Assembly: GCA_028280505.1 (NCBI GenBank)
Contig: JANQLO010000041.1
Span: 1 to 60,448 of the forward strand
Reading direction: 5' to 3'
Source of the DNA: Chromatiales bacterium
Lineage (GTDB): Bacteria > Pseudomonadota > Gammaproteobacteria > Chromatiales > Chromatiaceae
Length of the DNA: 60,448 nucleotides
Made by a program: the position numbers and the translations under genes
Shown here: in pieces, positions 1,989-47,856 of the stretch
Layout: every line of letters starts with the position of its first letter
Position numbering within the stretch: position 1 is the first letter of the stretch
Notes under the pieces: model-generated
Databases searched by the model: none
Told to the model about the DNA's origin: nothing
The model's input: the letters and a program-made list of their open reading frames with translations, nothing else

Positions 1989-2735
1989 ATGACGAAACGT
2001 GTCGCCTTCGTGACCGGAGGGAATGGGGGAATCGGATCAGCGATCTGTCGTGAGCTGGCATCTCGTGGACATCAGGTGGTAGCAGGTTACTTTCCACCGG
2101 AGAAGGAGTCCGCAGAGGCTTGGCAGAAGCAGATGCACGATCAAGGTTTTTCCATCGCGCTGGCTGCAGTAGACGTATCAAGTTTTACCGATTGTGAGCG
2201 GGCTGTCGGCGAGGTAACCGAAGAATTCGGTTCCGTCGATATCCTGGTGAATTGTGCCGGCATCACGCGTGACGGCACCTTGAAAAAAATGCCTGAAGAG
2301 AACTGGAGCGCGGTCATGGCGACCAACCTCGACAGTGCCTTCAACATGACCCGGCATGTGATCAACGGCATGCTCGACCGCGGCTGGGGCCGCATCGTGA
2401 ACATCGCGTCGGTCAATGGACAGCGCGGTCAGTTCGGTCAGGCCAACTACTCGGCTGCCAAGGCCGGCATGCATGGTTTCACCATGGCGGTCGCACTGGA
2501 GACCGCGGCCAAGGGCATCACGGTCAACACGGTGTCTCCCGGCTATATTGCCACCGCGATGACCGAGGCCATGCCGGAGAACGTGCTCGAGTCGATTGTT
2601 AACAGTGTGCCGATGCGTCGCATGGGTAAGCCCGAAGAGATCGCCGATGCGGTCGCCTGGTTGTCGAGCGAGGCAAACGCCTACACCACCGGTGCCAACA
2701 TCCCGGTGAACGGCGGCTTGTTCACCAGCCACTGA
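1989..2735 (+). CDS. phaB: Acetoacetyl-CoA reductase (NADPH-dependent)
   Basis: A 248-residue classical short-chain dehydrogenase that reduces acetoacetyl-CoA to (R)-3-hydroxybutyryl-CoA, the monomer step of polyhydroxybutyrate synthesis. Visible motifs are the nucleotide-binding TGGNGGIG (residues 9-16), NCAG (88-91) and the catalytic set S141, Y154, K158 in YSAAK. The segment VNGQRGQFGQANYSAAKAG and the C-terminus with IPVNGGLFTSH are characteristic of PhaB rather than of FabG. The start has GGAGA at -7 to -11. It lies downstream of the phasin gene and upstream of a strong terminator, so phaP-phaB form one unit. FabG-like ketoreductases are the main alternative, but sequence and context favour PhaB. 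Confidence 0.93.
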   Translation: MTKRVAFVTGGNGGIGSAICRELASRGHQVVAGYFPPEKESAEAWQKQMHDQGFSIALAAVDVSSFTDCERAVGEVTEEFGSVDILVNCAGITRDGTLKKMPEENWSAVMATNLDSAFNMTRHVINGMLDRGWGRIVNIASVNGQRGQFGQANYSAAKAGMHGFTMAVALETAAKGITVNTVSPGYIATAMTEAMPENVLESIVNSVPMRRMGKPEEIADAVAWLSSEANAYTTGANIPVNGGLFTSH

Positions 2736-2790
2736 TCGGGCGCACAAGAACCCTCCTGGCAGAGGAATCTGCCCCCTCTGCTCTTAACTT

Positions 2791-2818
2791 GGCGCCCTCA
2801 CCGGGCGCCGTTTTTTTT
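2791..2818 (+). terminator. Rho-independent terminator of the phaP-phaB unit
   Basis: GGCGCCC (2791-2797) and GGGCGCC (2803-2809) form a GC-only stem with a 5-nt loop, followed by G and eight T residues (2811-2818). A second, weaker stem (2759-2765/2775-2781) lies just before it. Confidence 0.9.
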
Positions 2819-3065
2819 CCCGGTACAAGAAAAGGAGAAGGCTGAAACGACCACTCATCGCCGTCCACGCCGGCCAACCGAGCGCCGGGGCATGGACGGC
2901 AAACTCTGTCGGGGTGAGCCTTGCGATGCCTCGACTAAACTTAAAAGGGCCCCTCAGGCTAACGCGTGGGAATGCCCTAAAAGACAGAATGACCCAAATC
3001 ACCGTCGAGGCCGAAGAGCCTGAGCTTTAAACGCGGGATGGGCGGTCAAGAGGATTGAGAGTGTT
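2819..3065. other. Non-coding gap between phaB and the LysR gene
   Basis: No gene is supported here. The stretch contains an 8-bp inverted repeat (GCCGTCCA at 2860-2867 and TGGACGGC at 2893-2900) enclosing GC-rich DNA, and ends in the ribosome binding region of the LysR gene (AGAGGATTGAGAG). The inverted repeat may be an autoregulatory site or a stem-loop. Confidence 0.4.
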
Positions 3066-6371: not shown

Positions 6372-6974
6372 ATGAAAAGCCTGCTTTGCATCGGCGTTCA
6401 GAAAACGATGACGTCCCGGCCGTTCCCCGGGCGATGCGCGTGCCTGCCGAAACTGACCCTGGCGATGCTTGCGGGTTTTGCGCTGAACACGGTTTCTCCG
6501 GCGACGATCGCCGGTGAGTCGTTGTCGCTGGACGATCAGCAAACCCGCAGCGTTATGGCCGATAACAACCGTCGGGAAAGCGTGTCGCGTGCCAGGTCGG
6601 GGCTGGGCTATCCCACGTTCTATCATGATGCCGATGACGTTCAGCGCACGCTCGATTTTCCGGGGATCAGCGAACAACTGCGCAGGATGCCGTTACCCCC
6701 GCCACAGCAAGCGGTGATCGTGCGACCGTATAACCTCGCCTATCCCGGGTGGGCAGGTGTACGCCAGCTTTATGGAACGACCGGCCCGACTATCGCGTCG
6801 GTCTCCCACGTGATGGAACAACGTTTGAACGCCGGCCATTTTTATCCTTTGCGCCTGGGTGGCGTCGAGGACGCGGGTTCGGCGATTGTCGTACGTTTAA
6901 TCAATAATCATGGCGCGGTCGGACAGGTGCTCACAGTCGATAAAAAAACGGGACTGTGGGCGGTATCGCGCTGA
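6372..6974 (+). CDS. Small exported protein of the CsgG/giant-protein unit
   Basis: A 200-residue protein with an N-terminal export signal (KLTLAMLAGFALNTVSPATIAGE after an unusually long basic region). The mature part has a Pro-rich middle (RMPLPPPQQAVIVRPY) and a C-terminal segment that reads like a small beta-rich domain (GSAIVVRLINNHGAVGQVLTVDKKTGLWAVSR). I do not recognise a family; it is not an evident CsgE or CsgF homologue. The ATG at 6372 follows AAGG; a later ATG at 6408 would shorten the signal but has no ribosome binding site. It ends 13 bp before the CsgG-like gene, so it is probably a periplasmic or outer-membrane accessory of that channel (inference from position). Confidence 0.7.
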   Translation: MKSLLCIGVQKTMTSRPFPGRCACLPKLTLAMLAGFALNTVSPATIAGESLSLDDQQTRSVMADNNRRESVSRARSGLGYPTFYHDADDVQRTLDFPGISEQLRRMPLPPPQQAVIVRPYNLAYPGWAGVRQLYGTTGPTIASVSHVMEQRLNAGHFYPLRLGGVEDAGSAIVVRLINNHGAVGQVLTVDKKTGLWAVSR

Positions 6975-6987
6975 CGGAGGAAAAAAG

Positions 6988-8067
6988 ATGTCAACCGAAC
7001 ACATCCGTGGCCGATGTTTGTCGAGCGGCCTGTTGCTGGTTCTTTGCGTGGGGCTGACCTCGCCGGCATTCGCTGACGATTACAGCTTGCTGTCGTCCGG
7101 CGGTGCCGATGAGGAATCGACGAACAAGACCGAAAAGGCGGAGACCGCCGACGAAGAGCGCATTGTCTGGGAGAAACCGAATCTGCCGCCGAGAGTGGGT
7201 CCGAAGCAGACCATTGCGGTAGGCAAGTTCGACACCATCGGATCGTTCACCGCGACCTACGGTAACTGGGATATCGGTGGCGGTCTGGCCGCCATGTTGA
7301 CGACGGCGTTGAGCGACTCCGGCTATTTCATCGTCTCCGAGCGGGCCAACATCCAGCAGATCCTCACGGAACAGGAGATGAAAGGCAGCGGAGCGGTACG
7401 TGCCACGTCGGGTCCTCAATTGGGTAATCTCACCGGCGTCAACCTGATGGTCTATGGTGCGGTGACCGAGTTCGGGGCGCAGGACTCGGGCGGCGGTATG
7501 AGCCTGGGATTTTCCGGCGGTGGTTTGGGCGGTCTGCTGAACAGTGCGATATCGCGCGAGAGTACGAGCGGCACCGTTGCGATGGATCTGCGTGTCGTCG
7601 ACACCACGACCGGCAATATCATCGACAGCTTTACCGTAAAGGAGAAGATCGAGAACACCGGCTATGACATTTCGCTTGGTTATGACGATATCAGTCTCGG
7701 CACCAACAAGTTCATGAATACGCCGCTCGGCGCGACCACGCGTAAGGCGATTGTCCGCGCGGTCGAGAAGATTGCGTTGACCAGCAACAATGCCGATTGG
7801 AGCGCGCTGGTCGTCGACCTCGACGGCGAAGAACTCTATATCAACGCCGGACGTCAGACCGGTATCGCCCCCGGGCAGAAGTTCGTCGTCGAACGTGTCA
7901 CCAAGCGTCTGATCGATCCCAGCACCGGCGAATTGCTGGGTACACGCACGGCCAAGCTGGGCATGGTGGAAGTCACCGAGGTGATGGATCGCATGAGCAT
8001 GGGCAAGTATCTGCCATTGACCTCGGACGCGCCGCAGGCCGGAGACCTCGTCAAAGCGACACGCTGA
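6988..8067 (+). CDS. CsgG/HfaB-family outer-membrane channel protein with C-terminal extension
   Basis: A 359-residue exported protein. The signal peptide ends in the type I site SPAFA-DD (about residue 29); there is no convincing lipobox, whereas E. coli CsgG is a lipoprotein. An acidic linker (30-65) leads to a CsgG domain (about 73-265): IAVGKFDTIGSF, GLAAMLTTALSDSGYFIVSER, then the Gly/Ser-rich transmembrane hairpin (GGGMSLGFSGGGLGG) and RVVDTTTGNIIDSFTV. An extra C-terminal beta domain (270-359; GIAPGQKFVVERVTKRLIDPSTGELLGTR) resembles the C-terminal domain of FlgT-like proteins. The ribosome binding site GGAGG (6976-6980) is strong. CsgG forms a nonameric secretion pore for unfolded curli subunits; here the next gene, 10 bp on, encodes a 5,549-residue exported protein, its likely substrate or partner. 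No curlin genes are present. Confidence 0.88.
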   Translation: MSTEHIRGRCLSSGLLLVLCVGLTSPAFADDYSLLSSGGADEESTNKTEKAETADEERIVWEKPNLPPRVGPKQTIAVGKFDTIGSFTATYGNWDIGGGLAAMLTTALSDSGYFIVSERANIQQILTEQEMKGSGAVRATSGPQLGNLTGVNLMVYGAVTEFGAQDSGGGMSLGFSGGGLGGLLNSAISRESTSGTVAMDLRVVDTTTGNIIDSFTVKEKIENTGYDISLGYDDISLGTNKFMNTPLGATTRKAIVRAVEKIALTSNNADWSALVVDLDGEELYINAGRQTGIAPGQKFVVERVTKRLIDPSTGELLGTRTAKLGMVEVTEVMDRMSMGKYLPLTSDAPQAGDLVKATR

Positions 8068-8077
8068 ACCGCCCGTC

Positions 8078-11000
8078 ATGATTCGGTTCAGCGTGCCCAG
8101 ACAACAGCCCAGGCCGCTACCGGTCCGGTTTCCCGGTAAGGCCGGCATTTTCGGCCTTTGTCTCAGCCTGTTCGTCGGTTTGACGGCGAACGCCTTTGCC
8201 GCGCCGTCCGAGAATCCGTTTGAGGTGCCGGTCGGCGAGGTGATGTCGACGTCACCTCAGCTTGCGAGCATTATGCGCAGCCCGACACGGCGATGCGGCA
8301 GTCGTTGCGGCAGTCAATGCGGCTCGAGCAAATGCGGCGGCAGCACGCCGGTATTCACCCGCCCCGCAGTCGTGACGCCGCCGCCACCCCCACCGAAACC
8401 CGTCGCGGCGCCGACGCCCGCGATCGAGCAAGAGGTTGAACGACCCGCTGCACCGGCCCTGGTGACCACCGAGACGACGAGCGCGCCGAAGGCCGATACG
8501 GCCAGCTCGGTTCATACGCCGTCCGGCGAGCCCAAACATTACGAATCAAGCCAGCCGAGCGTCGCCACCAAGACTGAACGCGAACACACGGGCAATGCCA
8601 GTGCAGTACGTCAGGGCTCGGTCGATCGTGCCAAGCGGCATCTGGGCTATGGCCGGGTGGGTTCCGTCGATGGCGAAACCGAAGACGACGAGACCTATGT
8701 ACGCGATCTCGACCACAATCGTATCTCGTCGCAGCTCAAGAACATCGGCGGCTACGTCAAGCAGCAAAAGGGTAACAACGTCGGCGGCACCACGACCCGC
8801 CCGAGGAAACCGAAGAAGCCGGATCAGCCTGTCGTCGTTAATCCGGGGCCGGCAATCGTTGAACAGCCCGAAGAACAACCGGGGCTTACGCCGCCGCCGA
8901 AGAAAGACCCGGTGATTCCGGACGACCCGGACAAGGAACTGATCGCGAATGACGACGGTGCAAGCACCGCCTACCGCAAGCGCGTAAGGGGCAACGTCAA
9001 GGGTAATGACGAATACGAGGGCTATGTCAGTGTCTCGCGTCTGTCGCGTACCCAGCATGGCAACATGCGTCTGTTCAGCAGTGGCAACTGGAGTTACAAG
9101 AACTCGATCCTGTTCAAGAACGGCGGTACCGACAGTTTCACCTATCTGCTGCAGGACACCGAAGGCAACAGCGATACCGCGACGGTCACGATCGATATCG
9201 CACCGAAGAAAAAGAAGAAGAAAAAGAAGAGAAACGGCGGCGGTGGGAAAGACCCGGGCGGCGGCCGCGGAGGCGGTGGCTCCGGTGGCGGCGGTGGTAT
9301 ACCGGCGAATTGCCGTGCCATGGCCGAAAAGTACAGCAAGCTGCCGCCCGATGTCATAGCGGCCAAGTTTGGTGCGGACCGGGCGGTGAAGGAGCGCTAC
9401 GAAGCAGCCGGTAAGGAGCTGGCGTCCGGTGACCCTTCTCACGAAAAGGCAGCGCGGGCACAGATGCGGGTCGAGACCATGCTCGCGCAGGGTGCGGATG
9501 ATCTGACCCTCGATATCGCGCAGACCGAGTATCGACAGGCGGTTACTCAACAACGCAATCTCGTCGATGCGGTCGCCAAGCCGCCGGTCGACACCTTCAA
9601 GAAGCTGTTGCAATCATCGGCCGCATCCGGTGGTGCGTTGCCGGTCCACCCATTGCTCGAAGCCAAGGACGGCGCCCCCGCGGCATTCCTGTATCGAAAA
9701 ATGCAGCAGCCCGGGGTGCAAAAACAGGTGGGTCGGTTCGCGGCCCGCGCCAACAAGATCGCGCTGAATACGCCGTTGCCCGACAAGCTGAAGGATCAAG
9801 CGGTCAATCTGTATCAACGTGTCACGGCAAAGACCGATGCCGTGTCGAAGATAAAAATGCAGAAGGTCGACGTCGTACGCAAACCGGCGCAAAAGCCCGC
9901 GACCGCGTTCCTGCGCGATGTCGAGCATCTTCGTCTGGCCTCGCTAAAAGTGCAGCGCGAGACCTTGGACGAGAAAGGGCTTCAGCGTGCTATTGCCAAG
10001 GTGTCGCTCGGTCAGCCGGTCAAGGGGAAAAAGCCCAAGCCGCAAATCGTAAAACTCAATGTGCCCGCATTGGGTGAGCCTCGACTCAGTCCGGACGACA
10101 GGACCCATGCCGTTCGGTTCATGCGCAAGGTTGCCAAGGCCTCGCCGTTACTCAAACAGTTGCAGACGAGTAGTAAGAAAGTCGGCAAGCAGGTCGCGAA
10201 ACAATATGTCGAACACGCGGCTGCGCAGACTTTCTACTCGGAGGTCGTCGGTAAGGAGCGCCTGCTGGCGATGCGTGAAATCGCCGAAGGCCGGGTCGGG
10301 CAGGTCGTTGGCGTCGGCCGCGACGGCTTGAAGGACGTCAAGGAAATCGCGGTCGACGAGCAGTTCCGGGTTCGACTGCTCGAAGACCTCCAAACACTCG
10401 ACAAAGATCGTCTGAAACATCATGCCAAGCGTTTGTCGGACGTACGTGCAAAGCAAGCCAATGCCACAGTCGATCTCATCAAGCACCAGTTCAGCAGCTC
10501 GGCGGATCTGATCAAGCAAGACTATCTCTCGGCGCGTGGCCAACTCGAGCGTGTATCACGGAAGATCGGCCCGGGTGTCATGAAAGCCACCGAGAATCTG
10601 CCAAAGGTCAAACGCGAGCTGGATCAAGTCCGCAAGCAGGTCGTGGGCCGTCTCGACAAGGGACAGGATCTCGGTGACCTGGAGACACGCCTGAAGACGC
10701 TGACCAAGGCCTTCAATGATGGCGACAAGGCACTTAAGAAGGCGCGCAAGAGCCAGGCCTTCAATCAGGCGCTCAAGACTTATGAGCAGCGCCGTGCCGC
10801 TTACCGTGCCGATCTCAAAAAGCAAAAGGCCGATCCGGCTTCTGCGAAGGCATTGAAAGAGAAGGCGTCGACGCAGAAGGATGCACTCGTCAACGCGTTC
10901 ACCCAGCGATTGGCACGCAAGGGCGGCCTGGAGAATCCGGTCGAGCGTGTACTGCGCGATCCGCGCGGTGCGATCGATACGGTCAAGCTCGCCGATTTCC

Positions 11001-14000
11001 AACAATTCGCGCAACGTGTACCGGCGATGCAGGCGCCCTTGAAGACCAAGGCGGTCCTGCCGTCGTCGGATCAGGTAAAGCGGGTCGACTCCCCCACACG
11101 CGCCGCGAGCCTGCGGACGTTCAACGCGGCCGATCTTTCCACGCTGGACGGTCGGATCAAATCCATCGAGGCCGTCGCCGCACCCGGACCCGTCAAGGCC
11201 GCACCACCGGCCGAGAGTCGACGTGCGGTCTACAAGACCGATGGTGACTTACCCGATAAGTTCACCAAGGCATCGCTCAGCGAACCGGCGTCGCTTGAAA
11301 AGAAACTGCGTAACAAGATCGTCGGCAGCAACGATATCCAGCGCTTCAGTCAGCCCAAGCACATGCGCGATATCGCCATGGTGCAACAGGGCAAGACAGA
11401 CGGTCTGAAAACACAACCCAAGAAGCTTGAAGGCCAGGCATTCGTCGATGCCTACAACAATGCCGTCGGCAATCTCGGTTGGGCGCATGAGTTCGAAAGC
11501 GAGGACGCGCTGCAGCGGTTCGCGCAGGAACGCATAGGCGGCCTGGGCATGGCGCATAAGAAATCCGATCTGGAGGATCCGGAGTATCGTGCGCGTTTGC
11601 TGCAGGAGCGTCTCGGCGGATTGGTCGCGGTGCATCGCTTCGACTCGATGGAAGACATGCGCGACTTCGTCAACAGCCGTCTCGGCGGACTGGGTCGTGC
11701 GTACACCTGTCTCGATCTGCTCGATGCCGGCTGGAGCGAAGATCAGGTCAACGGCATGTTCGATCGGGCGCGCGAGTTCGGCGCCAAAGATTTCGAGACC
11801 AAAAAAGACTGGGGCGAGCGCATGATGCGCGAGCACGGCGAAGAGTTTACGCGCGATCCGAACGGCGAAGTGCGCTTCAAGACCTTGACCGAAAAACGCC
11901 AGGAACACGAGGCTGAAATGCTGGCCTCGGGCAATTTCATCCGTGATCCCCAGACCGGCAACCTGGTGCACAAAGACACCAAGGCCGGTCGTCAAGTCAA
12001 GCGTAAGATCCTTGCCGCCAAGCCGAAAAAGGTAAAGATCAAGCTGGCCGGCGGGAAGGAAGCGACGCTGACCATCGACGGCTTCACCAGCCTCAACGAT
12101 GCACTGGCCGATGCATTGCGCGCGAAAGGCTATGTGCAAAATGCCGCCGGTGATTGGGTCGACGGTAACGGCAACATCGTCATCACCGGCGGTGCGGCAC
12201 GGCACTATGACGATCTCTACACCAATGCGATGGAAAAGCAGTTCGACGGCTTTTCCAGCGTGGTCACGCGGCGTCCGCCGCCACCGCCGCCCGCGGTGTC
12301 GACGACCGAGGAATCGCTACAGGCGCTGACCGACAAGGTTGCCGCGAGCGTCGGTTATACGGTCAGCAATGTCGAGATCGGCGGCAGGAAGATCGACATC
12401 GAGGTCCGTCCGGGTGAGACCTTCAGCGATGCACTGCGACGCGTGATCGGTGATTCGTCACGCTACGATTTCGATGTCGACGGTAATCTGATCGATCTGG
12501 AAAACGATCGTGTCGTCTTGAGCGATGAAGAGATCACGAAGAAGGATGAGCGTTATCGCGACAGGGTCCTTGAATCGATCTTCGGCGAGGATCAGAAGGG
12601 ACTCAACGAAAACGTGTTGTGGATGGCGCGCTTTGGCACGCCGGAGCAAAAACGCACTGCCCAGGCGATTATCGACCAGCTCGATCGTCAGGCCGCCGCG
12701 GTCACTGCCAGTGTAAAAGCGCAGGACGAAATCAAGAAGAAACTGGCCGAACTGGAGACCGACGACAAGCTCAGCGATCAGGAAAAACGCCGGCAGCGGC
12801 AAATTCTGCAGGCCCAGCTCACAACGGCCAATCAGGCAAGGCGTGATGCCGAGACGGTCTTGTTCAATCAGGCCAATACGGCAAACGCATCGGCCACTCG
12901 TGCGCAGGAACGTTCATTGACGCGCGACGAGCGTCGTGCCTTGGCCTTGTATGACGATTTGCAGGACGTGCGCGACGACATCGCGGCGCTGGATGCCGAA
13001 CTCGCCAAGAATCCGCGTCAAACCCGGCGCAAACAGCTCCTGGCCGAGCGCGCCCGAAAACTGAAGCAGCTCTATGGCATCAATCAAGACCTGATCGAGC
13101 AATCGTCTGAGCTGATTCAACCGGAACGCCTTGCCGGGCGTATCCCGGACATCGATACCCTGCGTCAGACCTTCGATCCCAGTACCGCCGCGGATTGGCG
13201 TGATGCACGCGACCGCGCCATCGGCGTGCGTTTCGAAGAACGTGATGGCAAACGCGTGGCCGTCTACATCGGCCCCGACGGCAAACCCTTCGTCGATCCG
13301 GGTGAGCTGGGGCCGGACGGTAAACCGAAGGAGATCGTCGTCTCCGCGTCGGCCGGTGAGAAATTTTTGGCGTCTCGTAAGAACCGACTCGGTAAGGAAA
13401 GAGACTATTTCAACCGCAACATCGGCTCCTTGGAGGATGCCTGGAAAGATTTGCAAAAGACCAATACCGAGGTCGAGAAGCTCGAAGCCAAGGCGGCGAA
13501 GGAAGGTCTGAAAGGTTGGGAACAGACCAAGCTGCGCAAGCTCAAGAGGAAACAGGCCGAACAACAGGCCGAGGTGCGAGAAATCAAGGATCGCATTGAT
13601 TCACGGACCCAGAGCTATCGCCAGGTGAAGGCACTGGTCGACGCCGAAAAGGCCAAAGGCGAAGGCGGCGAGAAGTCCGCCTTGGGTGAACTCTTGGCCG
13701 CAGCGGACCAAGAGGCGGCCGAGATTATGGTCGCTCGCGAAAAGGCGAAGGAGGAATGGGACAAGGGTATCCGTACCATCACTTACACGGATGAAAACGG
13801 CGTCGAACGGACCTGGATGAGCGAGAAGGGGCGTCAGTACCAAGCGGAACAGGCCAAGAAGGCTCAGGAAGCGGCCGAACGCGCGGTCGAAGAGGCCGCC
13901 AAAGCGGCGCAGAAGGCCGTCGAGGAAGCGGCGCAAGAGGCAGAACGCATCGTACGCGAAGAACGTGAGCGCCAGATTGCCTTGGCGAAACAGATCAAGG

Positions 14001-17000: not shown

Positions 17001-20000
17001 CCTTTGAAGTTGTGGCCGCCGTCTTGACCGGCGGTGAGAGCGTACTGGTGCGGGGTTCCAGTGCACTGGGCAGGGGCGCAGAGTTTGTCTCGCGTACGGC
17101 GCGCGTGTTGGATAAAGCAGGCGATTTGGCGCGGCGGGGCGGCCAGATCGCACAAACGGCACAGCGTTGGTCCAAAGCTTCCAATTACGTTGCCGACGGT
17201 ATGCGTACTTTGGCCGGGCGCACTGTCGCACTCGACAGCGGCATCCGTTCGGTAGCACGTCGTGGCGTCGGTGCGGTCGTTGATGTGATCGAGGCGCCGG
17301 TCGGTGCGCTGACTCGTAAGGTACCGGATGCGTTGAAGCCGGATATCCTACCGAGCCTGCAACGCGGCTTGGCACGTGCCTCGGTACAGGAGGTGCAAAA
17401 CGCCCAGCGTATGGCCGGCGCACTGGGGCGTGCCGAGAATCTGCTGGCGCGGGCCGCGCGCTCCAACGATACCGCCGAGATCGCCAAATTGGTTGATGAG
17501 GCGATGGGATTGAAAAAGACCGCTGCGGTCTTCTTTGAAAAGAATCCGGCCGCTTTCGATTTGCTTGCCGACTCGGGCAGTTTGTCGCGTTCGGTTGCCG
17601 GGCTCAACCCATCGCGTGCGTCGACGGCTTTCGTCAAAGCGGCGGACAAGGCCGAATCGGCCGGTGATGCCATTGCCGCGGCGGCATTCCGCAAATCCGC
17701 GATCACGGCTTCGTTCGCCAGTGAGTTCGGTCACGACGCCAGCCAACAGCTGCGCCGTGCCGCGCAGGATAGTATTGACCAACGCTTGCTGAACTCGCTG
17801 GACGATTTTGCTCCGGCAGTTGGTGCCGATCCGAATCAGATCGCGCGCAACCTTCGCAATGCTTTCCAGGCCGATGGCGTGAGTGACAGAGGCTTGCGCA
17901 CCAAAGCCGATGATTTGATCCAGAAGGCGACGCAAGACAGATCATTACTGCAGCAAGATATCGCCAAACTCGAGCGAAGTCTTCAGGGAGCTAATGCAGA
18001 AGCCAGGGAGGCAGGTGCACGTGCTTTGGCCGGTAAGCAGGAGCAGCTTGCCAAGCTGAACCAGTTGGAAAAGGTAATGACCAATCTGCGCGACGCGCCC
18101 GAGGTGCCGGATACGGCGTTGGCACGCGCGGTACCGGATCAACCGACCAAACCGGTGTCGTTCGACGGGCCTGATCAGCCGACGGTGACCTCGCCGAGTG
18201 GGCCCACCGTCGCAGGTCAAGCGGCGCGCGCGGCCGACAAAGTAGACGTGCCCGCTGAAAAGCTCACCGATGATCTGGTCAATCTCGACCCACCGCCGGC
18301 GGTTCCGCCGCGTAAGCCGGATGCGCCCTTACTTGCCGCAGAGCGCCAGGCCAACGAGCTAGCCGACGTGGCCGATAAGGCACCCGCGCGCGCGCCACCC
18401 GAGGCACCCGACAAACCGCCTGTCGCCTCGTCTGCCGATGAACCACACAATCTGGTGTTCACGACGACACAGGGCGACACCGTAGAACTGCCGCTCGGTG
18501 ATTACCTCGGCAAGGGTAGCTTCAGCAAGGCCCACAAGGCCGGTCACGATCCGGACAATCTGGTCGTCCGGATGACCGATATCGACAAGAACCCGGAAGC
18601 ACGCCAACTCGACGAATTCGGCCGCAAGGTCCTGGAGGAACAGGTTGACCAGGGCGTCGTGCGCATCGTCCGGCGTGAGGCACGCTTCGAAGTGGCCAGT
18701 TCACCGGATCCCGCGCTTGCCAATCGACGTGGCGTCGAACTGGTCGAACGCGCACCGCCACCGGCCAAAGAACTGTTCAAACGCAATCACGATGGCCTGA
18801 TGTCGCCCGGGCAGGCGAAGGCTTTCGATCGCGCGGTCAAGGAATTCAACGACAAGGGGCTCGTCTGGGGCGATAACAAACACGACAACTACACCTTCGA
18901 GGCCTTGGACGGTGACGACAACTGGCGTGTCGTGGTGATCGATCCGGGCGGTATCGTGCCGATCAAGCCGTCACCGGGACGCACAGCGGCACAAAACGCA
19001 CGTGACGTTCAGGCGCGCATCAATGCGCCGATGCCCGAGGAATTCGCGACCTTGTCGAAGCTGTCACGCGGCTATCGCGGCGATGTGATGAAGGCCGACA
19101 TCGTCGAGAACTTCGGCGAGCTCATCGATTACAAGGCGGTCGGGCTGAAATCGCTCGACGAGGTGCGCTTCAACCCGGCCGGTGTCTTGGATTACCCGAA
19201 GGCGCGTGAACTGTTCAATCTACCGGACGACCAAGTCGCCAAACGTGTCGCCAAGTGGCAGGCCGATCGTGAAGCGGCCGGCTTGGTCCCGGCAAAACCC
19301 GATGAGGTGCTGCAGGCCACTCAACTGGCCAAAGACAATCTCGTCCGCGCACGGCGTGCCGCCGATCAGCCGCCGGGTGGCAAGGTCGATGCAGACGCAC
19401 TGGCGGCGGCGCATAAACAGTTGGACGAACTGCAGGGCCCACGTCGTGATACGGCATCAGCGGACGACATCGCCAAAGCACGTTCCGCCTACGACGATCT
19501 AAGCAGCCGTGCGATCGAAGCAAAGGCACGTAAGGATTTCGCTGACGATATCGAACTGCGCCAGTCACTGCTCGGCAAAGTCGCAAAGGACGAACAAGCG
19601 CTGCAGCGTTTGACGCGCTCCGACCTGGATTGGCTCAGCGGCAAACGCACACGGCTCACGCCCGATGAAGAGGCTTGGGCACAAAAGATGATCGATGCGG
19701 TCGATGGCGATTGGGCCAAGCTGACCAAGAAGATCGGCGATGGCATCAGTGAGCTCGAGATGCATAAGCTGGTGAGTTACCGGCGTCAGGAAGTCGATCG
19801 CATGTTGGATGCGGCGATCGCCAAGGTTGAACGGGAAACGGGTCGCAAGCTCACACGCCAGGCTTTCGGTTCGACCAATCTGACCAGCGACTACGATCTC
19901 TCGGTCACGGGTTGGGGCGCCGAGCGTGTGGTCGCCGAATTCAATCAGGCGTTCAGAAACCGCTTCAAGAAGGAGCCCGGCAGTTTCTTCGATACCAATG

Positions 20001-23000
20001 TCTATACCGACCCGGTGTACAATCTGTATTCACGCAAAGCGCTGCGTGATCGCGGGCTCGATCTGCCGCCGACCGAAGTGGATGAGTTCCGCCAGTTCAT
20101 GTTCGACCAGATGGCCAATCGGAAGTACCTGAATGATCAGCAATGGGTGCAGCACGTCAAGATTCTGGAGAGCAGCGCGCCGGATGAATCGACCCGGCGA
20201 ATGATCCGCGAGACCTTGCAGCGGGTCGATGATGCGGAACAGACGGCCCGTAAAGGCTTGCAGCAACGCATGTCCGAAGTCTCCCGCCGCACCGGGCAGG
20301 ATATCGGTGACAAGAACGTCGAGTTCCAGGCGAAGAACGAACTCTATGAAGAGTCACTCAAGTCAATCGATGCCTTCCGCCAGGACCATGACTTTCTCAC
20401 CCGCCTGAGCGCGGAGCGGCCGGACATCGATATGCCCGCCAGCGGTGTGCGCAGCCAGTTCACCAAGGCCGACGGTACGCCGATGGAGACGGCCTACAGC
20501 CGCGCGGTCGACGAGATGCGCAAGCTCTACAAGTCCGGTGATCCCAAGAAGATCGCCAAGGCCGACAAGCTGAAGGCCGAATGGCAGGGCAGGCTGGAAA
20601 ACCAGATGCGCAACCGCCAGGGTACGGCACTGTACTACGCCAGCGAGGCCTATCAGACCCAGGGCACCATTGCGCATGTCGTGCGTGAAATCCAGGCCGG
20701 CGACAAAGATATCTCGTTTGCCAGCCTAACGGCGAAAGGCAAGAAGGCCGCGGACGATGATGCGGTCAGCGGCTATCTGAATTCGTTCAACGAGAATCGG
20801 GCGAACATGTTCAAGGAGCTGAACGAACTGCGCTCCGGTGACGGTTTCGGCAGCTATGCCGACAAGGCCGCGGGCAAGGCGGCGAAGTACTTCATCCGGC
20901 AGTTGGATGCGGCGCACGAGGCCGGTGTCGACCTGACGGCCTTCCTGCCGGATCGTTTGATCAAAGCGACGGTCGCGGCGAATGCGAATCGCAGCAGCAA
21001 GGCGGCGTTGAAGCAGGCGTTGAAAGATCTGGGCTTCGATGATCCGGCGGACTTCGTGCGTCAGGCGGAGTCGGCGTCGCACATGCTGTTGCGCGAAGGC
21101 ATGAAGCGTTCGCCGCTGAATCGTCTGGCCGGTGCGGTGGATGCGCATCAGCGCGAGGTCAATGCCCTGATGCGTTCGGTCGGTGCGGTCGATCCGGCCA
21201 ATATTCGCACGGTGTCTCGAAAGTACGCCTCGGAAGCGATACCGGATGAGAACCCCTTGTTGACTGGCAACGCCAGGACAGCGGTCGATCTGGATAGCCG
21301 TAAGAGTGAGATGTTGGCGCAACGCTTGCGTGAGCAGGCCAGCCGTCTGGAGAAGGGCGGCGAGACACCCGAACGTGTCGCAATCTATCGCGAATTGGCC
21401 AAGGAGGCCGACGAACGCGCGACCAGTCTGCGTGCCGCCGATTATCAACGCACCCTGTCGCAAGACAACAACAGCGGTATGCGTGAACGCATCGTCGGCG
21501 GTCCGGTCGACGATCGCGCGCTACGCCGACAACTCACCGAGGCGCAGCGCGACGGTGCTCCCAAAGAGCAACTCGCCGCCTTGCAGGCCGAGATCGACAG
21601 TACCGCATTGCGACGCGCCGAGGTCGCCGAACTCCTGGATCAGACACCCGATTGGGAGCTGATGGCCAAACGCATGCCGACCGATGATGCCGATCTGGCC
21701 GCGCGCATGAGCGAGTTCCGCGAATGGACCTTCGAGCAGGTGCAACGGCGCTGGCCGAATACCGTGCGTACCGGGACCAGCGGCAAGATGGGCAACGATC
21801 TGGATTTCAGTGTCTCGGGTCCGAATGCCGGCCGCGATCAACTGGCGATCGAGAAATTCCTGCGCGAGGAGATCGAGATCGCGCCGGGGATCAAAGGGCT
21901 GGGCAAGCACTGGGACCGCAAGCTGCACTCGACGGCATTCGGCGATCCCGAATTGATTCATATCTACGATCGTCTGCCGGAACCGAAGCTGCGCGCCCGG
22001 GTACGCGATTCGCTCGCGGAGATGGTCGAGGCCGCGCAGTTCGAACGCCTCAAGCACAGCATGTCGCCGGAATCCTGGGAGACCTTCAAGCGTTCGTTAC
22101 CGGATGTCGATGTCGAGGCGCGTATCGCACAACATCAACTGCCTGCCGACTTCGATCGCGCCAAACTGTTACTGGCTCGCGATCAAGCCTATCAACGTCT
22201 CGTGAAGAGCGGCTTCAAGGATGCCGATGCGGCGCGTGAGGTGAGTCGGACCCAGGTCATGTTGAATCGCAATGATCCCGAGGCCTATCTGTCGTTCGGC
22301 GGCGTCAAGCAGACCGTGACCTTCAAAGAGGGTCTGGTGAAGTTCGATCGACCGATGCGGGCGCGGATCGAAAACGGCAATGTCGTGATCGATACCGACG
22401 CAGCCGCGACCAAGCCCGGGCTGGTACTGGAACTGCCGGGACAACGCAGCGCAACGCGCGTGTTCGAAAATGTTGCAGATCTACGCAAGTACCTGAATGA
22501 ATTGAAGGCTCAGCAGCCCGGCATTCGGCGGTTGAGCGACCAATTGGTCGTGCAACGAACGTTGAATGAACTGGAAAACACCGTGCTGCGGGTGGAGCCG
22601 TCAGAGCGTTATCAGTCGGTGTTGGGCAATATGGCTTTCTTCGAGCATCAGATCGAACTGGTTGGTGGTGATCCCTTGCTGGCCCTGCGTCGTTACCAGA
22701 CGTCGAAATATCTCGACCGTATTCTGAGCGAGGCCTACGAAATGGGTATCCCGGCGCATGCGACCGGTTTCCTCGGCGAGGCCAAGTCCTTGGCGCGACG
22801 CTTCTACAAGGAACGCGATCCGACCATCGCGCGTTTCTTCGGCAGCGAGACCTCGAATCTCGATGCAGAGGCCTATGCCGCACTGCAGTCGCAGGCAAAG
22901 GACTTGCTGGGCCAACTTCGGCAGTTGAATAACAGCATCGCGGCCAGGGCGCGTGACGATGCGCTCAAGGCAATACGCTATGCCGAGGGCCCCACGATAA

Positions 23001-24727
23001 TTCCCGAGGCTGATGATCCGGCCAGGGTGGCCAGTTTGGTGCTGGGCGGTGACGGTGCCGTGGTCGCCAAGGCTTACCGGAACGCACGCGAGGCGCTGGG
23101 TGGCAAGATCGATGGGCTGGCGATCGATCTTTCGTCGCACCGTCGTGAGGGGCTGGTGCTACCGGCCCAACTCAGGTCGGTCGACGACGCGGACGAATTC
23201 GTCGGTCTACCCGCCAAGCTGGATGCCGAGACGCGTGCGAGCTTGGGCGCCAACAGCCAGCGTTTGTACGATTTGCGTTTCGACGACAGTATCCGGCCTC
23301 AGACCTTACGCATAGTCACGCGAGAAACCGATCCGAATATATTGCAGGCACTGCGTCAGCGATCGTTCGACGAGGATCGGGTGTTGCTCGAGTTCCGTAC
23401 GCCGGACGGTAAACTCATCCCGGCCGCATCGACCGGGCGGCCATTTCCGCAACCGCCGGCCGGTGGCGGTGTCGAGCGCTTCGGTAAAGACCTGCCACGC
23501 GCGCCCAAGTGGAATGCCGAGCCACCGGATGTGGCGGCGGTCGAAGGCCGGGCCGCGTTACCCGAATCGGATCGCTCGAAGCGTGGCGCGGCTTTGCAGC
23601 AGGAGTCGAGCATTCGCGCCGATGCCCGTACCCGATTGACCGACACGCTGGCGGTGGTCGAACGCGGCCAGGCTTCGGTCGCGCAGATTCGCCAGTATCG
23701 TCAGGCCTTGCGCCTGAACGACTACCAGCAGGAACTGGACGCGATGTTGGTTGCGGCGCGCAACAGCGGTGTCTCCGAGGCCGAGATCGCGGCGGCCGTC
23801 GGCACGGAAGCCGCCTATCGGCTTGCGCCGTTTACCGCACGTAAGGCGGCGATTCGTGGTCTGCAGGAGCGCCTGTTACAGCGCGCGGGGCGCCTGGTAT
23901 CGGATGACAACATCAAACAGTTGCGCCCGGTATTGTTGCGGGTGGCCAATGGGGTATCGAGCCGGGCCGATGACGGTTTGGTACGCGACTGGATAACCCG
24001 CTTTGCCCGTCAGGACCAGAACTTCATCGAAGAGCTCACGCGTCGCGGTCGCATCGATTTCGAACAGGGTTTCGAACCCATCGTCGGCGAGGAGACGGCG
24101 GCAAGGCTATTGAAGCAAGCCGAGGCGAAGAATCTCATCAGTTCCAGCGAAACACCGGTGCTTTGGCACAATCCGGTGCGCCTGGCGAAACCGACTCGGG
24201 GGCAGGGCACGCCACCGCAGTTTTTCAACGACACCTGCGGCCTCATGGCGGTCGAGGGCGCGATGCGCGATCGCAACTTGATTACCAATCTGAGGCCCGA
24301 GAGCGGCCTGCGCGATATTGCGTTGAAAAGCAAACTCTTCGAACCCGGCAGAGGCATGACCAAGGCTCAGCTGAGCCAGTGGATCGGTCGCGAGGGGGGC
24401 GATGTGAACTGGGCCGGCCGCAAGCCGACGCCGGAAGAGATGCTGCGCCAGTTGGACGACGACAAGGACCTGATCGTGATGATTCGGACTGGCAATGACG
24501 CCTATCATTGGGTGCGCGTCGAGAATTTCCGCCATAGCCCGGTCGACGGCCAGCTCTGGGTCGCGGTGGGCGATCCGGCCAATGGCAAGAGCTGGAGCAC
24601 CCCGGCACGGCTGCTGGCGGCGCAGATCCACGGCGACAACGTGCTTTCGATCGACTGGCGCAGGGCCAAAGGAAAAATTGCCGACGACGTGCCGGGCCGG
24701 GGAATCAAGATATCCAGGGCGAAGTAA
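8078..24727 (+). CDS. Giant exported multi-domain protein (5,549 residues) ending in a cysteine peptidase-like domain
   Basis: One uninterrupted 16.6-kb frame. In order: signal peptide (1-42, ANAFAA); a Cys cluster C73-C77-C81-C86; Pro-rich linker; an Ig/cadherin-like module (about 285-375, TDSFTYLLQDTEGNSDTATV); a Lys run and Gly-rich linker (377-407); long charged helices; four 24-26-residue GGLG repeats (about 1125-1225); three related KGY modules (1335-1374, 1446-1485, 2227-2266); coiled coil to about 2810; an Ala/Gly/Val-rich pretoxin-like segment (2875-2990); a kinase-like domain (about 3458-3632: GKGSF 3478-3482, D3599-x-K-x-x-N3604, D3622); two nucleotidyltransferase-like sites (G3931-S with D3938/D3940; D4574/D4576); and a C39/papain-like domain with C5387, H5477, D5499. 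It follows the CsgG-like gene by 10 bp. Domain roles are inference; a multi-effector toxin or a giant surface protein are both possible. Confidence 0.85.
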   Translation: MIRFSVPRQQPRPLPVRFPGKAGIFGLCLSLFVGLTANAFAAPSENPFEVPVGEVMSTSPQLASIMRSPTRRCGSRCGSQCGSSKCGGSTPVFTRPAVVTPPPPPPKPVAAPTPAIEQEVERPAAPALVTTETTSAPKADTASSVHTPSGEPKHYESSQPSVATKTEREHTGNASAVRQGSVDRAKRHLGYGRVGSVDGETEDDETYVRDLDHNRISSQLKNIGGYVKQQKGNNVGGTTTRPRKPKKPDQPVVVNPGPAIVEQPEEQPGLTPPPKKDPVIPDDPDKELIANDDGASTAYRKRVRGNVKGNDEYEGYVSVSRLSRTQHGNMRLFSSGNWSYKNSILFKNGGTDSFTYLLQDTEGNSDTATVTIDIAPKKKKKKKKRNGGGGKDPGGGRGGGGSGGGGGIPANCRAMAEKYSKLPPDVIAAKFGADRAVKERYEAAGKELASGDPSHEKAARAQMRVETMLAQGADDLTLDIAQTEYRQAVTQQRNLVDAVAKPPVDTFKKLLQSSAASGGALPVHPLLEAKDGAPAAFLYRKMQQPGVQKQVGRFAARANKIALNTPLPDKLKDQAVNLYQRVTAKTDAVSKIKMQKVDVVRKPAQKPATAFLRDVEHLRLASLKVQRETLDEKGLQRAIAKVSLGQPVKGKKPKPQIVKLNVPALGEPRLSPDDRTHAVRFMRKVAKASPLLKQLQTSSKKVGKQVAKQYVEHAAAQTFYSEVVGKERLLAMREIAEGRVGQVVGVGRDGLKDVKEIAVDEQFRVRLLEDLQTLDKDRLKHHAKRLSDVRAKQANATVDLIKHQFSSSADLIKQDYLSARGQLERVSRKIGPGVMKATENLPKVKRELDQVRKQVVGRLDKGQDLGDLETRLKTLTKAFNDGDKALKKARKSQAFNQALKTYEQRRAAYRADLKKQKADPASAKALKEKASTQKDALVNAFTQRLARKGGLENPVERVLRDPRGAIDTVKLADFQQFAQRVPAMQAPLKTKAVLPSSDQVKRVDSPTRAASLRTFNAADLSTLDGRIKSIEAVAAPGPVKAAPPAESRRAVYKTDGDLPDKFTKASLSEPASLEKKLRNKIVGSNDIQRFSQPKHMRDIAMVQQGKTDGLKTQPKKLEGQAFVDAYNNAVGNLGWAHEFESEDALQRFAQERIGGLGMAHKKSDLEDPEYRARLLQERLGGLVAVHRFDSMEDMRDFVNSRLGGLGRAYTCLDLLDAGWSEDQVNGMFDRAREFGAKDFETKKDWGERMMREHGEEFTRDPNGEVRFKTLTEKRQEHEAEMLASGNFIRDPQTGNLVHKDTKAGRQVKRKILAAKPKKVKIKLAGGKEATLTIDGFTSLNDALADALRAKGYVQNAAGDWVDGNGNIVITGGAARHYDDLYTNAMEKQFDGFSSVVTRRPPPPPPAVSTTEESLQALTDKVAASVGYTVSNVEIGGRKIDIEVRPGETFSDALRRVIGDSSRYDFDVDGNLIDLENDRVVLSDEEITKKDERYRDRVLESIFGEDQKGLNENVLWMARFGTPEQKRTAQAIIDQLDRQAAAVTASVKAQDEIKKKLAELETDDKLSDQEKRRQRQILQAQLTTANQARRDAETVLFNQANTANASATRAQERSLTRDERRALALYDDLQDVRDDIAALDAELAKNPRQTRRKQLLAERARKLKQLYGINQDLIEQSSELIQPERLAGRIPDIDTLRQTFDPSTAADWRDARDRAIGVRFEERDGKRVAVYIGPDGKPFVDPGELGPDGKPKEIVVSASAGEKFLASRKNRLGKERDYFNRNIGSLEDAWKDLQKTNTEVEKLEAKAAKEGLKGWEQTKLRKLKRKQAEQQAEVREIKDRIDSRTQSYRQVKALVDAEKAKGEGGEKSALGELLAAADQEAAEIMVAREKAKEEWDKGIRTITYTDENGVERTWMSEKGRQYQAEQAKKAQEAAERAVEEAAKAAQKAVEEAAQEAERIVREERERQIALAKQIKAQRDAQASRFRDQFHRYEDDLKSAERQQASAQAELDAAARDIERARAGKIENTPELKKRYADAQKALAKANAEVEQKRLLANQAEALAASNDPAFIALLNDEQKKIRTLHQSYTDAQSQTSAKFKALAALKNDPKASAEDIRQAREAFAQASKAESEARQKVIDQQTAMSAMVDNALYTKATPEFNRARIAQLEERAGDKGTQKGLTKEENEEYWRRRYLQDYFDKVAEAQLKAQAIQEMQAAYDANQQAGGKYRTLSETLADVMRQKGYTLNDEGKWLDGSGRVVMRDSTSLSQEEMVILVGERQRQDKLKELGGYKDQTLAAQEMQLIGEWMTSMRGGRGGKSLLHPDQDGSLRRELLGFLDGREAAKKKLDDAQALVLQRQQELAQARAAAAEDPSAYSRRQIDYSAELLRLAEGRVRYARDQLKSAEDDAKEQDEALSGNALLAHRTGRVQGASTLVAERTVKMQEALVAYQLNPTAANRRTFEGRQDDLNRAVGLLNEAEKGVRALTGRDATPGGGIPAVSYLDILRSDRKIEQQALVARRQAEEERYRAARQREFEGLQKVEQLRQARDMSQEDLNKAVAASEKQGIALQAERAKAVKAGDRNKIALLDRQIADQQVFHEALDNTLREKLADRNMSRERLKLATLRVARDKADEAGDSDKVKALDKQIKDQQIVATYHENYAMRVRHRIGPRSFIEAQDKLVPKEWELSAEYAAREREYRFQQALDIQRRMHSQNQQRAASEGQIRKDIKVLEDELLALQLSDKRGSNKADIAVKEQELSDARAAFSNRSRLFDNGDRNLREEWETLVTQNRRDGIGPTSDHDVHKIAHQHNINLNAVFLADANVVERQRKGGSALVQLYQDQQMTAERDTWGDYFLDEFNPLNADSTLRKSANLPWLGKTLAGNAVGVGKGAYKTVEGIVKLVPAVADATYESVGILAGADIETDTLDSINRVLDVVDKRGVGRIVSDMKNDFFKKLNKGDAHWNASVAGGEVAFEVVAAVLTGGESVLVRGSSALGRGAEFVSRTARVLDKAGDLARRGGQIAQTAQRWSKASNYVADGMRTLAGRTVALDSGIRSVARRGVGAVVDVIEAPVGALTRKVPDALKPDILPSLQRGLARASVQEVQNAQRMAGALGRAENLLARAARSNDTAEIAKLVDEAMGLKKTAAVFFEKNPAAFDLLADSGSLSRSVAGLNPSRASTAFVKAADKAESAGDAIAAAAFRKSAITASFASEFGHDASQQLRRAAQDSIDQRLLNSLDDFAPAVGADPNQIARNLRNAFQADGVSDRGLRTKADDLIQKATQDRSLLQQDIAKLERSLQGANAEAREAGARALAGKQEQLAKLNQLEKVMTNLRDAPEVPDTALARAVPDQPTKPVSFDGPDQPTVTSPSGPTVAGQAARAADKVDVPAEKLTDDLVNLDPPPAVPPRKPDAPLLAAERQANELADVADKAPARAPPEAPDKPPVASSADEPHNLVFTTTQGDTVELPLGDYLGKGSFSKAHKAGHDPDNLVVRMTDIDKNPEARQLDEFGRKVLEEQVDQGVVRIVRREARFEVASSPDPALANRRGVELVERAPPPAKELFKRNHDGLMSPGQAKAFDRAVKEFNDKGLVWGDNKHDNYTFEALDGDDNWRVVVIDPGGIVPIKPSPGRTAAQNARDVQARINAPMPEEFATLSKLSRGYRGDVMKADIVENFGELIDYKAVGLKSLDEVRFNPAGVLDYPKARELFNLPDDQVAKRVAKWQADREAAGLVPAKPDEVLQATQLAKDNLVRARRAADQPPGGKVDADALAAAHKQLDELQGPRRDTASADDIAKARSAYDDLSSRAIEAKARKDFADDIELRQSLLGKVAKDEQALQRLTRSDLDWLSGKRTRLTPDEEAWAQKMIDAVDGDWAKLTKKIGDGISELEMHKLVSYRRQEVDRMLDAAIAKVERETGRKLTRQAFGSTNLTSDYDLSVTGWGAERVVAEFNQAFRNRFKKEPGSFFDTNVYTDPVYNLYSRKALRDRGLDLPPTEVDEFRQFMFDQMANRKYLNDQQWVQHVKILESSAPDESTRRMIRETLQRVDDAEQTARKGLQQRMSEVSRRTGQDIGDKNVEFQAKNELYEESLKSIDAFRQDHDFLTRLSAERPDIDMPASGVRSQFTKADGTPMETAYSRAVDEMRKLYKSGDPKKIAKADKLKAEWQGRLENQMRNRQGTALYYASEAYQTQGTIAHVVREIQAGDKDISFASLTAKGKKAADDDAVSGYLNSFNENRANMFKELNELRSGDGFGSYADKAAGKAAKYFIRQLDAAHEAGVDLTAFLPDRLIKATVAANANRSSKAALKQALKDLGFDDPADFVRQAESASHMLLREGMKRSPLNRLAGAVDAHQREVNALMRSVGAVDPANIRTVSRKYASEAIPDENPLLTGNARTAVDLDSRKSEMLAQRLREQASRLEKGGETPERVAIYRELAKEADERATSLRAADYQRTLSQDNNSGMRERIVGGPVDDRALRRQLTEAQRDGAPKEQLAALQAEIDSTALRRAEVAELLDQTPDWELMAKRMPTDDADLAARMSEFREWTFEQVQRRWPNTVRTGTSGKMGNDLDFSVSGPNAGRDQLAIEKFLREEIEIAPGIKGLGKHWDRKLHSTAFGDPELIHIYDRLPEPKLRARVRDSLAEMVEAAQFERLKHSMSPESWETFKRSLPDVDVEARIAQHQLPADFDRAKLLLARDQAYQRLVKSGFKDADAAREVSRTQVMLNRNDPEAYLSFGGVKQTVTFKEGLVKFDRPMRARIENGNVVIDTDAAATKPGLVLELPGQRSATRVFENVADLRKYLNELKAQQPGIRRLSDQLVVQRTLNELENTVLRVEPSERYQSVLGNMAFFEHQIELVGGDPLLALRRYQTSKYLDRILSEAYEMGIPAHATGFLGEAKSLARRFYKERDPTIARFFGSETSNLDAEAYAALQSQAKDLLGQLRQLNNSIAARARDDALKAIRYAEGPTIIPEADDPARVASLVLGGDGAVVAKAYRNAREALGGKIDGLAIDLSSHRREGLVLPAQLRSVDDADEFVGLPAKLDAETRASLGANSQRLYDLRFDDSIRPQTLRIVTRETDPNILQALRQRSFDEDRVLLEFRTPDGKLIPAASTGRPFPQPPAGGGVERFGKDLPRAPKWNAEPPDVAAVEGRAALPESDRSKRGAALQQESSIRADARTRLTDTLAVVERGQASVAQIRQYRQALRLNDYQQELDAMLVAARNSGVSEAEIAAAVGTEAAYRLAPFTARKAAIRGLQERLLQRAGRLVSDDNIKQLRPVLLRVANGVSSRADDGLVRDWITRFARQDQNFIEELTRRGRIDFEQGFEPIVGEETAARLLKQAEAKNLISSSETPVLWHNPVRLAKPTRGQGTPPQFFNDTCGLMAVEGAMRDRNLITNLRPESGLRDIALKSKLFEPGRGMTKAQLSQWIGREGGDVNWAGRKPTPEEMLRQLDDDKDLIVMIRTGNDAYHWVRVENFRHSPVDGQLWVAVGDPANGKSWSTPARLLAAQIHGDNVLSIDWRRAKGKIADDVPGRGIKISRAK

Positions 24728-41518: not shown

Positions 41519-41593
41519 TGGTGGGCGCGGCTGGGTTCGAATCAGCGGTCTCTGCCGCGTGAAGGCAGTGCTTTCCCGCTCGGCTACGTGTCT
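41519..41593 (-). pseudogene. Decayed tRNA-Val(CAC) copy
   Basis: It aligns over all 75 nt with the intact tRNA-Val at 57019-57093 with 12 differences counted by eye, 11 of them transitions. The T-arm, 3' acceptor strand and CCA are preserved apart from one stem pair; the 5' acceptor strand (AGACACG against GGGCGCG) loses three pairs and the D stem two, while the anticodon CAC remains. It is unlikely to fold into a working tRNA and is best read as a pseudogene or an attachment-site copy. Confidence 0.75.
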
Positions 41594-43945: not shown

Positions 43946-44007
43946 ATCACCGAGATAAATCGTGTGAAAGATAATTTGCACTATCACGAATAAGAGTAGA
44001 AGTCACG

Positions 44008-47850: not shown

Positions 47851-47856
47851 GGCTAA

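Follow-up and report, generated by a model that had tools for sequence, protein, structure and literature searches.

The window analysed here is a 60,448-nt stretch of a Chromatiales bacterium (GenBank assembly GCA_028280505.1, contig JANQLO010000041.1) in which three co-directional genes, separated by intergenic gaps of 13 and 10 bp, encode a small exported protein, a CsgG-family protein and a giant exported protein of 5,549 aa. The small protein and the giant have in common a module of about 65 residues, named here the LGY module. The genes and the two copies of the module are as follows.

6372..6974, +: small exported protein, 200 aa, with a signal-peptide-like start (by eye), the LGY module and a conserved C-terminal domain, fold unassigned (ORF calls, homologues)
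6543..6737, +: LGY module of the small protein (E = 3.4e-20 with alignment A4, which includes this sequence)
6988..8067, +: CsgG-family protein, 359 aa, with a CsgG domain and an FlgT_C-like C-terminal domain (Pfam, predicted-structure model m506ad27bf366)
8078..24727, +: giant exported protein, 5,549 aa, in one unbroken frame (ORF call; 4,739-aa homologue in genome G172)
8582..8788, +: LGY module at residues ~169-237 of the giant, following the signal peptide and a Pro-rich linker (E = 1.4e-7 with an HMM of small proteins only)

The Locus and Its Genes

A first-pass annotation of this DNA had placed the three genes with these gaps, assigned the second to the CsgG family, seen an Ig/cadherin module in the giant and recognised no curlin, CsgE or CsgF, and our analysis agrees on all four points. 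The 359-aa protein matches the Pfam family CsgG (PF03783) with 119.6 bits against a cut-off of 20.8 (E = 1.5e-34), the giant carries a Big_9 domain at residues 289-372 (E = 1.7e-8), and none of the 20 window ORFs chosen for Pfam matched the curlin, CsgE or CsgF families, the shorter ORFs and the rest of the genome lying outside that search. The N-terminal segments of all three proteins were judged by eye to be signal-peptide-like. A longer frame containing the small-protein ORF opens at 6300, and the CsgG-like ORF is preceded by a GGAGG. Promoter and terminator scans, with counts near those of shuffled sequences, gave one promoter-like site between the giant and the downstream HlyD gene and none before the unit; an Rfam scan of the window found tRNAs only.

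A Module Common to the Small Protein and the Giant

In the giant, the LGY module stands just after the signal peptide and a linker, which in the giants is rich in proline and threonine or in acidic residues. Its motif, A....LGY or a near form followed by a helix-like stretch, can be read in the N-termini of the small proteins and of five giants. We searched the giants with an HMM built from eight small proteins only, using 1,000 shuffled N-termini as a control (best shuffle 0.026), and four of the five scored better than all shuffles: besides the window's giant, those of loci L023 (1.9e-5), L046 (1.4e-4) and L044 (0.01). In the reverse direction, an HMM of the giants only recovered six of the eight small proteins with E values of 1e-8 to 2e-5 (best shuffle 0.085), the two weak ones being the window's own (0.039) and that of L030 (0.27). 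The small protein itself matched no Pfam family, and a PDB sequence search with it also gave nothing.

The combined profile, A4, found 19 places at E < 1e-7 in 11 of 16 chosen genomes. Sixteen of these are training sequences; the new ones are the small protein of G152 and two larger proteins, of 631 aa in G146 (1.2e-11) and 412 aa in G145 (6.7e-8). The other five genomes contained no module at E <= 0.01, and two of them (G045 and G150) have a CsgG relative, 33-37% identical, that lies outside the module-bearing clade in the tree. The next best place for the profile, C15 in the window's own genome (E = 0.0106), was taken as a chance match.

Linkage and Co-occurrence Across Genomes

When a genome collection covering 84,980 species was scanned for the pattern of a three-sequence CsgG alignment, 14 loci were obtained. 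Ten of them (L023-L030, L033 and L034) are 46-54% identical; by title, nine are from Rhodospirillales, Rhodospirillaceae, Thalassospiraceae or Dongia, and the remaining one, L028 (genome G147), falls in the order of Dongia mobilis. The closest CsgG relatives within the window's own class are at most 41% identical. Thirteen genomes were found with the small LGY protein and this CsgG subfamily; in all 13 the small protein is encoded directly upstream of CsgG, and giants adjoin the CsgG gene in six (the window, L023, L028, L029, L033 and G172). The gene order at L023 is that of the window, with a giant of at least 2,178 aa that meets the contig end, while L028, L029 and L033 have divergent giants of 3,911, 3,800 and 3,748 aa, the 3,800-aa one belonging to Dongia mobilis CGMCC 1.7660. 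All homologues of the giant that we found in other genomes, in 4 of the 12 searched and additionally in G172, are at the CsgG locus.

Counting every protein with the module other than the small one, 9 of the 13 genomes encode a larger LGY protein (412-5,549 aa), and seven of these proteins adjoin the channel gene. They measure 5,549 aa in the window, at least 2,178 aa at L023, 4,739 aa in G172 (with a weak module), 3,911 aa in G147, 3,800 aa in G148, 3,748 aa in G151, 464 aa in G144, 631 aa in G146 and 412 aa in G145, the last two on contigs other than that of the CsgG gene. G143, G149, G152 and G247 yielded none; in G143, G149 and G152 the contig stops within the CsgG gene or 245 bp after it.

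The module profile was run on about 700 of 97,973 genomes. In the alphaproteobacterial order of G144, the module occurs in 9 of 317 genomes at E <= 1e-4, and the CsgG subfamily, at E <= 1.6e-60 (best six candidates per genome scored), in precisely these nine; in eleven further genomes of the order CsgG matches are weaker (E from 5e-22 to 1.6e-24) and the module is absent. The module is present in 3 of 17 genomes in the Dongia order and in 1 of 369 in the window's class, the window's own. Seven of the nine co-occurrence genomes had first been found through CsgG, and six of those are rows of the module profile, so the independent part of the result is the absence from the other 308 genomes together with the two genomes found by module only, G172 and G247. 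In both of these, the module was found before CsgG was sought, and a CsgG gene lies directly downstream. In G172 it is followed by the 4,739-aa giant, which is 30% identical to the window's over 1,362 columns (E = 4e-120) and similar in further pieces up to about window residue 5353; its own module is weak (5e-5) and lacks the LGY letters. In G247 a 478-aa exported protein follows, in which the module was not detected.

The CsgG-family frame is broken in 2 of the 13 genomes, at L033 9827-10881 (G151, frameshift-like) and L080 1985-3013 (G172, an in-frame TAA), by either sequencing error or decay. Separately, at L032 315-7652 in Methylomirabilota, two tandem CsgG-family genes directly follow a gene for an RHS/YD-repeat protein of 1,682 aa (RHS repeat, E = 4.7e-135) that looks exported and has no LGY module; it may be a further large exoprotein linked to CsgG.

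A Proposed Export Unit

The genomic evidence for a functional linkage of the three genes is strong, as far as sequence comparison goes, and we regard the conserved export-type unit as real and as a new variant of CsgG-type export. Since the small protein and the giant carry the same N-terminal module, the unit probably exports very large proteins and not curli fibre subunits only. On balance, we lean towards an outer-membrane export unit for LGY-tagged cargo, with a CsgG-family exporter, a long surface effector and a constant small accessory. The small protein and the giant would enter the periplasm through Sec by their signal peptides. Given the common module and the strict co-occurrence, we infer that the LGY modules dock on a ring formed by the CsgG-family protein. 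If curli and MafA/MafB are a guide, the chain would then be threaded out unfolded through a CsgG-type barrel and fold outside. Possible roles of the small protein are those of a gate, a plug, a surface anchor or a priming cargo. The giant would be displayed as an effector with the Ig domain near its base, a long body, a hydrophobic segment and an exchangeable C-terminal tip, a plan like that of CdiA and possibly serving antagonism, and the smaller LGY proteins of the relatives may be alternative cargo.

The CsgG-Family Protein as Channel Candidate

By analogy with CsgG, we take the 359-aa protein to be a putative outer-membrane pore. It falls short of the curli CsgG equivalog NF011731 of NCBIfam (37 bits against a cut-off of 505) and matches the HfaB model weakly (E = 7e-4, 18.9 bits against 300), FlgT_C with 23.3 bits (E = 9.1e-5, cut-off 27) and FlgT_M with 18.8 bits (E = 0.0019, cut-off 31.2). 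Its start is of signal-peptidase-I type without a lipobox pattern, and the curli-type lipoprotein feature is thus absent. In the CsgG alignment A2, the pattern is found in 2 of 11 rows (L024 and L026), the row of L027 lacking its start. A second, weaker CsgG-family match is present on another contig of the window's own genome (G000:C64 3653-3829, E = 1.3e-10).

Some of the observations weigh against export through a pore fed by the LGY module. The fifth giant, L045, scored 0.092 with the small-protein HMM, not above the best shuffle, and in a full-length structural comparison the model of the 359-aa protein matched FlgT-like chains best, not CsgG. Together with the FlgT_C-like C-terminal domain, the missing lipobox and the hairpin segments not resolved in the model, the FlgT-like fold would suit a periplasmic ring of FlgT/PelC/LpoB type without a pore, binding LGY modules as a scaffold for a giant that is a periplasmic or envelope-spanning structural protein. 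We consider such a scaffold unlikely. By sequence, CsgG is a better match than FlgT_M, with E values about 31 orders of magnitude apart, and the Ig domain and variable tips of the giants are better suited to surface display. At the two positions presumed, from the structure of CsgG, to hold the transmembrane hairpins, the segments measure 29-33 and 28 aa (model confidence 45-63 and 62-71), compared with 24 and 33 aa in curli-type CsgG and 18 and 23 aa in five weaker relatives, which may be pore-bearing or not. A test for amphipathic hairpins had no power, as curli-type CsgG also failed it.

The Giant and the Variable Ends of the Cargo

Besides its LGY module, we distinguished the following regions in the giant.

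8942..9193, +: Ig/cadherin-like domain (Big_9, Pfam), residues 289-372
16970..17050, +: most hydrophobic segment after the signal peptide, residues ~2965-2991, pretoxin-like by eye (hydropathy)
18440..19012, +: region common to the L023 giant, kinase-like motifs by eye (42% identity, E = 2e-26; no family match)
19679..20377, +: region common to the three Dongia-order giants, with a GS..DYD motif that by eye looks nucleotidyltransferase-like (29-32% identity, E from 3e-20 to 4e-37, for this or a longer stretch)
21632..22237, +: second region, with an NDLDFS motif, kept in the G172 giant (39% identity over 634 columns, E = 2e-88)
24134..24724, +: residues 5353-5549, the C-terminal tip, in which Cys, His and Asp by eye are arranged as in papain/C39 (Pfam, NCBIfam and PDB gave no match)

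The Ig-type domain is the sole recognised domain and is also present in the G172 giant (E = 5.5e-24); otherwise, Pfam, NCBIfam and PHROGs gave nothing convincing. The several enzyme-like domains that had been suggested near the C-terminus are thus reduced to kinase-like, nucleotidyltransferase-like and Cys/His/Asp motifs read by eye, and PDB sequence searches with the tips and the enzyme-like region found nothing. On the very long coiled coils described in the first-pass annotation, composition suggests long helices, as does an AlphaFold model of residues 3442-4488 that was too poor for any other use (mean pLDDT 54.7). The alignable parts differ among relatives: the region around the hydrophobic segment is kept in G172 (its residues 2523-2916 align with window 2641-3002, E = 1e-19), residues 3458-3645 align with the L023 giant and residues 3868-4486 with the Dongia-order giants, to which the N-terminal part of the L023 giant aligns as well.

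The ends of related cargo proteins vary. The 464-aa protein of L025 agrees with the 412-aa protein of G145 at 56% identity for 312 columns, after which the two are unrelated, and no similarity was found between the tips of the window and G172 giants. A constant N-terminal body with exchanged C-terminal domains, the plan of polymorphic toxins, is thus seen in both pairs. The tips of such toxins, according to Zhang et al. (PMC3482391), include papain-like and ParB (DGHHR) domains; by eye, the window tip resembles the former, with C5387, AYHWVRVENF at 5475 and GDP at 5498, and the G172 tip the latter, with QGHHR at 4669, neither with a library match. No toxin domain was convincingly recognised at the tip by Pfam or NCBIfam, and no clear immunity gene candidate follows the window or G172 giant or, counting ORFs of at least 110 aa, the three Dongia-order giants. 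The cargo genes of L025 and G145 are each followed directly by an OmpH-family gene (E = 2e-17 and 7.5e-21):

L025 6794-7366 and L072 3-533, -: OmpH-family genes beside LGY cargo, one of the two cargo genes being on a contig other than that of its CsgG gene

The chaperone Skp belongs to the OmpH family, and these neighbours could suit a periplasmic transit of the cargo; they may also be unrelated.

The same features bear on whether the giant is instead a holdfast- or biofilm-type adhesin in an HfaABD-like anchor unit and not an antagonistic effector, a reading that keeps the export via a CsgG-like channel and so overlaps with the export part of ours. As described in PMC6707917, the CsgG-like protein HfaB is required for positioning HfaA and HfaD at the outer membrane. 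The lack of a clear immunity gene would fit an adhesin, as would the HfaB match of the channel candidate and a Bap/LapF-type NCBIfam match of the Ig domain (E = 2.9e-7), both far under their cut-offs. The divergence of the C-terminal tips among related cargo would be unusual for adhesins, the giant shows no internal repeats in a self-comparison, and the motifs read by eye look catalytic; we hold an adhesin unit to be improbable, on a par with the scaffold.

The Range of Cargo

The first-pass annotation had taken the giant as the only obvious cargo and the locus as a secretion unit possibly dedicated to it. The genes do belong together, as the common module and the giants beside CsgG indicate; what does not stand is the exclusive role of the giant. 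Across the 13 genomes the small protein is the constant neighbour and a giant is adjacent in six, and in three genomes the only larger LGY protein found has 412-631 aa, in two of them on another contig. The CsgG-like gene is conserved without the giant, an outcome that the annotation itself had named as refuting; the strict giant-dedicated version fails, and a unit dedicated to LGY-tagged cargo survives.

The constancy of the small protein could also mean that it is the true cargo, as a curlin-like or anchor subunit, while the giant exits otherwise or just binds the small protein via its paralogous module. In 7 of the 13 genomes we found no giant adjoining the channel gene, although four of the seven have their contig end there. 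Where at least 1.3 kb of contig is available on each side, a larger exported protein (at least 464 aa) is adjacent in eight of nine loci, and the genome of the lone exception, L027, has the unlinked 631-aa LGY protein. An HlyD/RND gene pair that follows the window's giant, a conceivable other exit, recurs in sister species, and in G002 it clearly has no such unit upstream of it. We therefore judge the small protein as the only cargo to be less likely still than the scaffold or the adhesin. A chance neighbourhood of unrelated genes is refuted by the conserved linkage and very improbable: the same gene families stand together across two classes with a common module, and both forward-test genomes agree, even if the small protein and the C-terminal half of the giant were not found in related genomes, a negative that is weak for the giant because the family-wide search scored the best two candidates per genome.

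Comparison with Known Systems

The closest parallel to the proposed LGY export unit is MafA/MafB of Neisseria, where one outer-membrane partner gene stands beside exported proteins that have a common N-terminal domain and differing C-termini (PMC7738311, PMC3482391 and PMC4524018). MafA is required for MafB secretion and thought to be an oligomeric channel reminiscent of CsgG (PMC7738311), and the conserved domain of the Maf cargo follows the signal peptide (PMC3482391). In contrast, the giant, small and CsgG-like proteins have no DUF1020/MafB-N or MafA Pfam match at E <= 1, MafA is described as a lipoprotein, whereas the window's protein has no lipobox, and the unit includes cargo of up to 5,549 aa and an extra small LGY protein, with no clear immunity genes. 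The LGY unit may thus work like MafA/MafB, but by the features compared is not a member of that system.

With curli (type VIII) secretion, the unit has in common the CsgG domain of the channel candidate. It differs in the extra FlgT_C-like domain, in cargo that is large, non-repetitive and multi-domain, and in the absence of curlin repeats from the small protein, the giant and the 20 chosen ORFs, and of CsgE and CsgF from those ORFs. Many Alphaproteobacteria lack several curli genes, according to Dueholm et al. (PMC3521004). A genome of the window's family, G032 (L012 1339-3480), has a curli-type CsgG beside a curlin-repeat protein (E = 1.1e-35), and ordinary curli therefore also occurs in the window lineage.

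HfaABD resembles the unit in that an alphaproteobacterial CsgG-like translocon candidate serves surface proteins besides a curlin-like one (PMC6707917), but the HfaB match of the window's protein is far from that model's cut-off. FlgT is matched by fold, yet both FlgT families stay under their cut-offs, and no flagellar family was found near the unit among the window ORFs scanned.

In contact-dependent inhibition (CDI), the two-partner secretion pair CdiB/CdiA has a giant, stick-like exoprotein with an exchangeable tip and an adjacent exporter gene. The likeness, a giant with an exchangeable tip beside its putative exporter gene, is one of analogy: the exporter family differs, and neither the giant nor the channel candidate has a TPS domain, haemagglutinin repeats, POTRA or Omp85 match in Pfam at E <= 1. 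As far as searched, we did not find the unit described in the open-licence PMC literature.

Origin and Genomic Context

In the CsgG tree, the window's protein lies inside the alphaproteobacterial set (a seven-row clade, support 96/93) on a long end branch of 0.83. This placement and the absence of the module from the 368 other genomes searched in the class suggest that the unit probably reached the window lineage by horizontal transfer. The HlyD/RND operon that directly follows the giant is 79-80% identical in the sister species G002 and G008 and is native to the genus; with such an operon next to the giant, we think contamination unlikely. In G002, the roughly 11 kb upstream of the operon show neither the window's upstream flank nor the unit, and the G008 contig ends 1.4 kb upstream of it; an empty site is therefore not shown.

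We also considered the giant as a phage or plasmid gene and rejected this: residues 3455-5549 had no match in the phage or plasmid collections, and PHROGs gave nothing convincing. The CsgG-like protein had one match in the plasmid collection, 23% identical, and none of 214 pattern stretches from viral contigs encoded a CsgG relative.

Elsewhere in the window, positions 2-739 encode an RTX/haemolysin-type calcium-binding protein, perhaps a fragment at the window start (HCBP_related, E = 1.8e-19). Between two tRNA-Val(cac) genes, 41519-57093 holds glycosyltransferase and ABC-transporter genes of low GC (0.44-0.52 at 42-56 kb, compared with 0.57-0.62 in the first 30 kb). The tRNA copy at 41519-41593 is the weaker one (Rfam 39 vs. 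70 bits), and the stretch resembles a genomic island whose tRNA end was duplicated.

Implications

Curli-type channels are known for small amyloid subunits, and a CsgG-family unit of the kind proposed here would suggest that a simple outer-membrane pore may handle giants. A bolder and more tentative possibility, to which we give somewhat less than even weight, is a distinct Gram-negative secretion system that combines a CsgG-family pore with a portable N-terminal LGY targeting module and takes Sec-delivered effectors of any size, including giants that have exchangeable tips and more than 5,000 residues; this would amount to a CDI-like weapon on a curli-type channel. If the export of LGY-tagged cargo is true, LGY would be a sequence tag for finding the cargo of CsgG-family proteins. 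A CsgG-family unit with a defined cargo module would make the question of what else the many non-curli CsgG proteins export directly testable, and Dongia mobilis CGMCC 1.7660, a culture-collection strain that carries the unit with its giant, is probably where this can be done.
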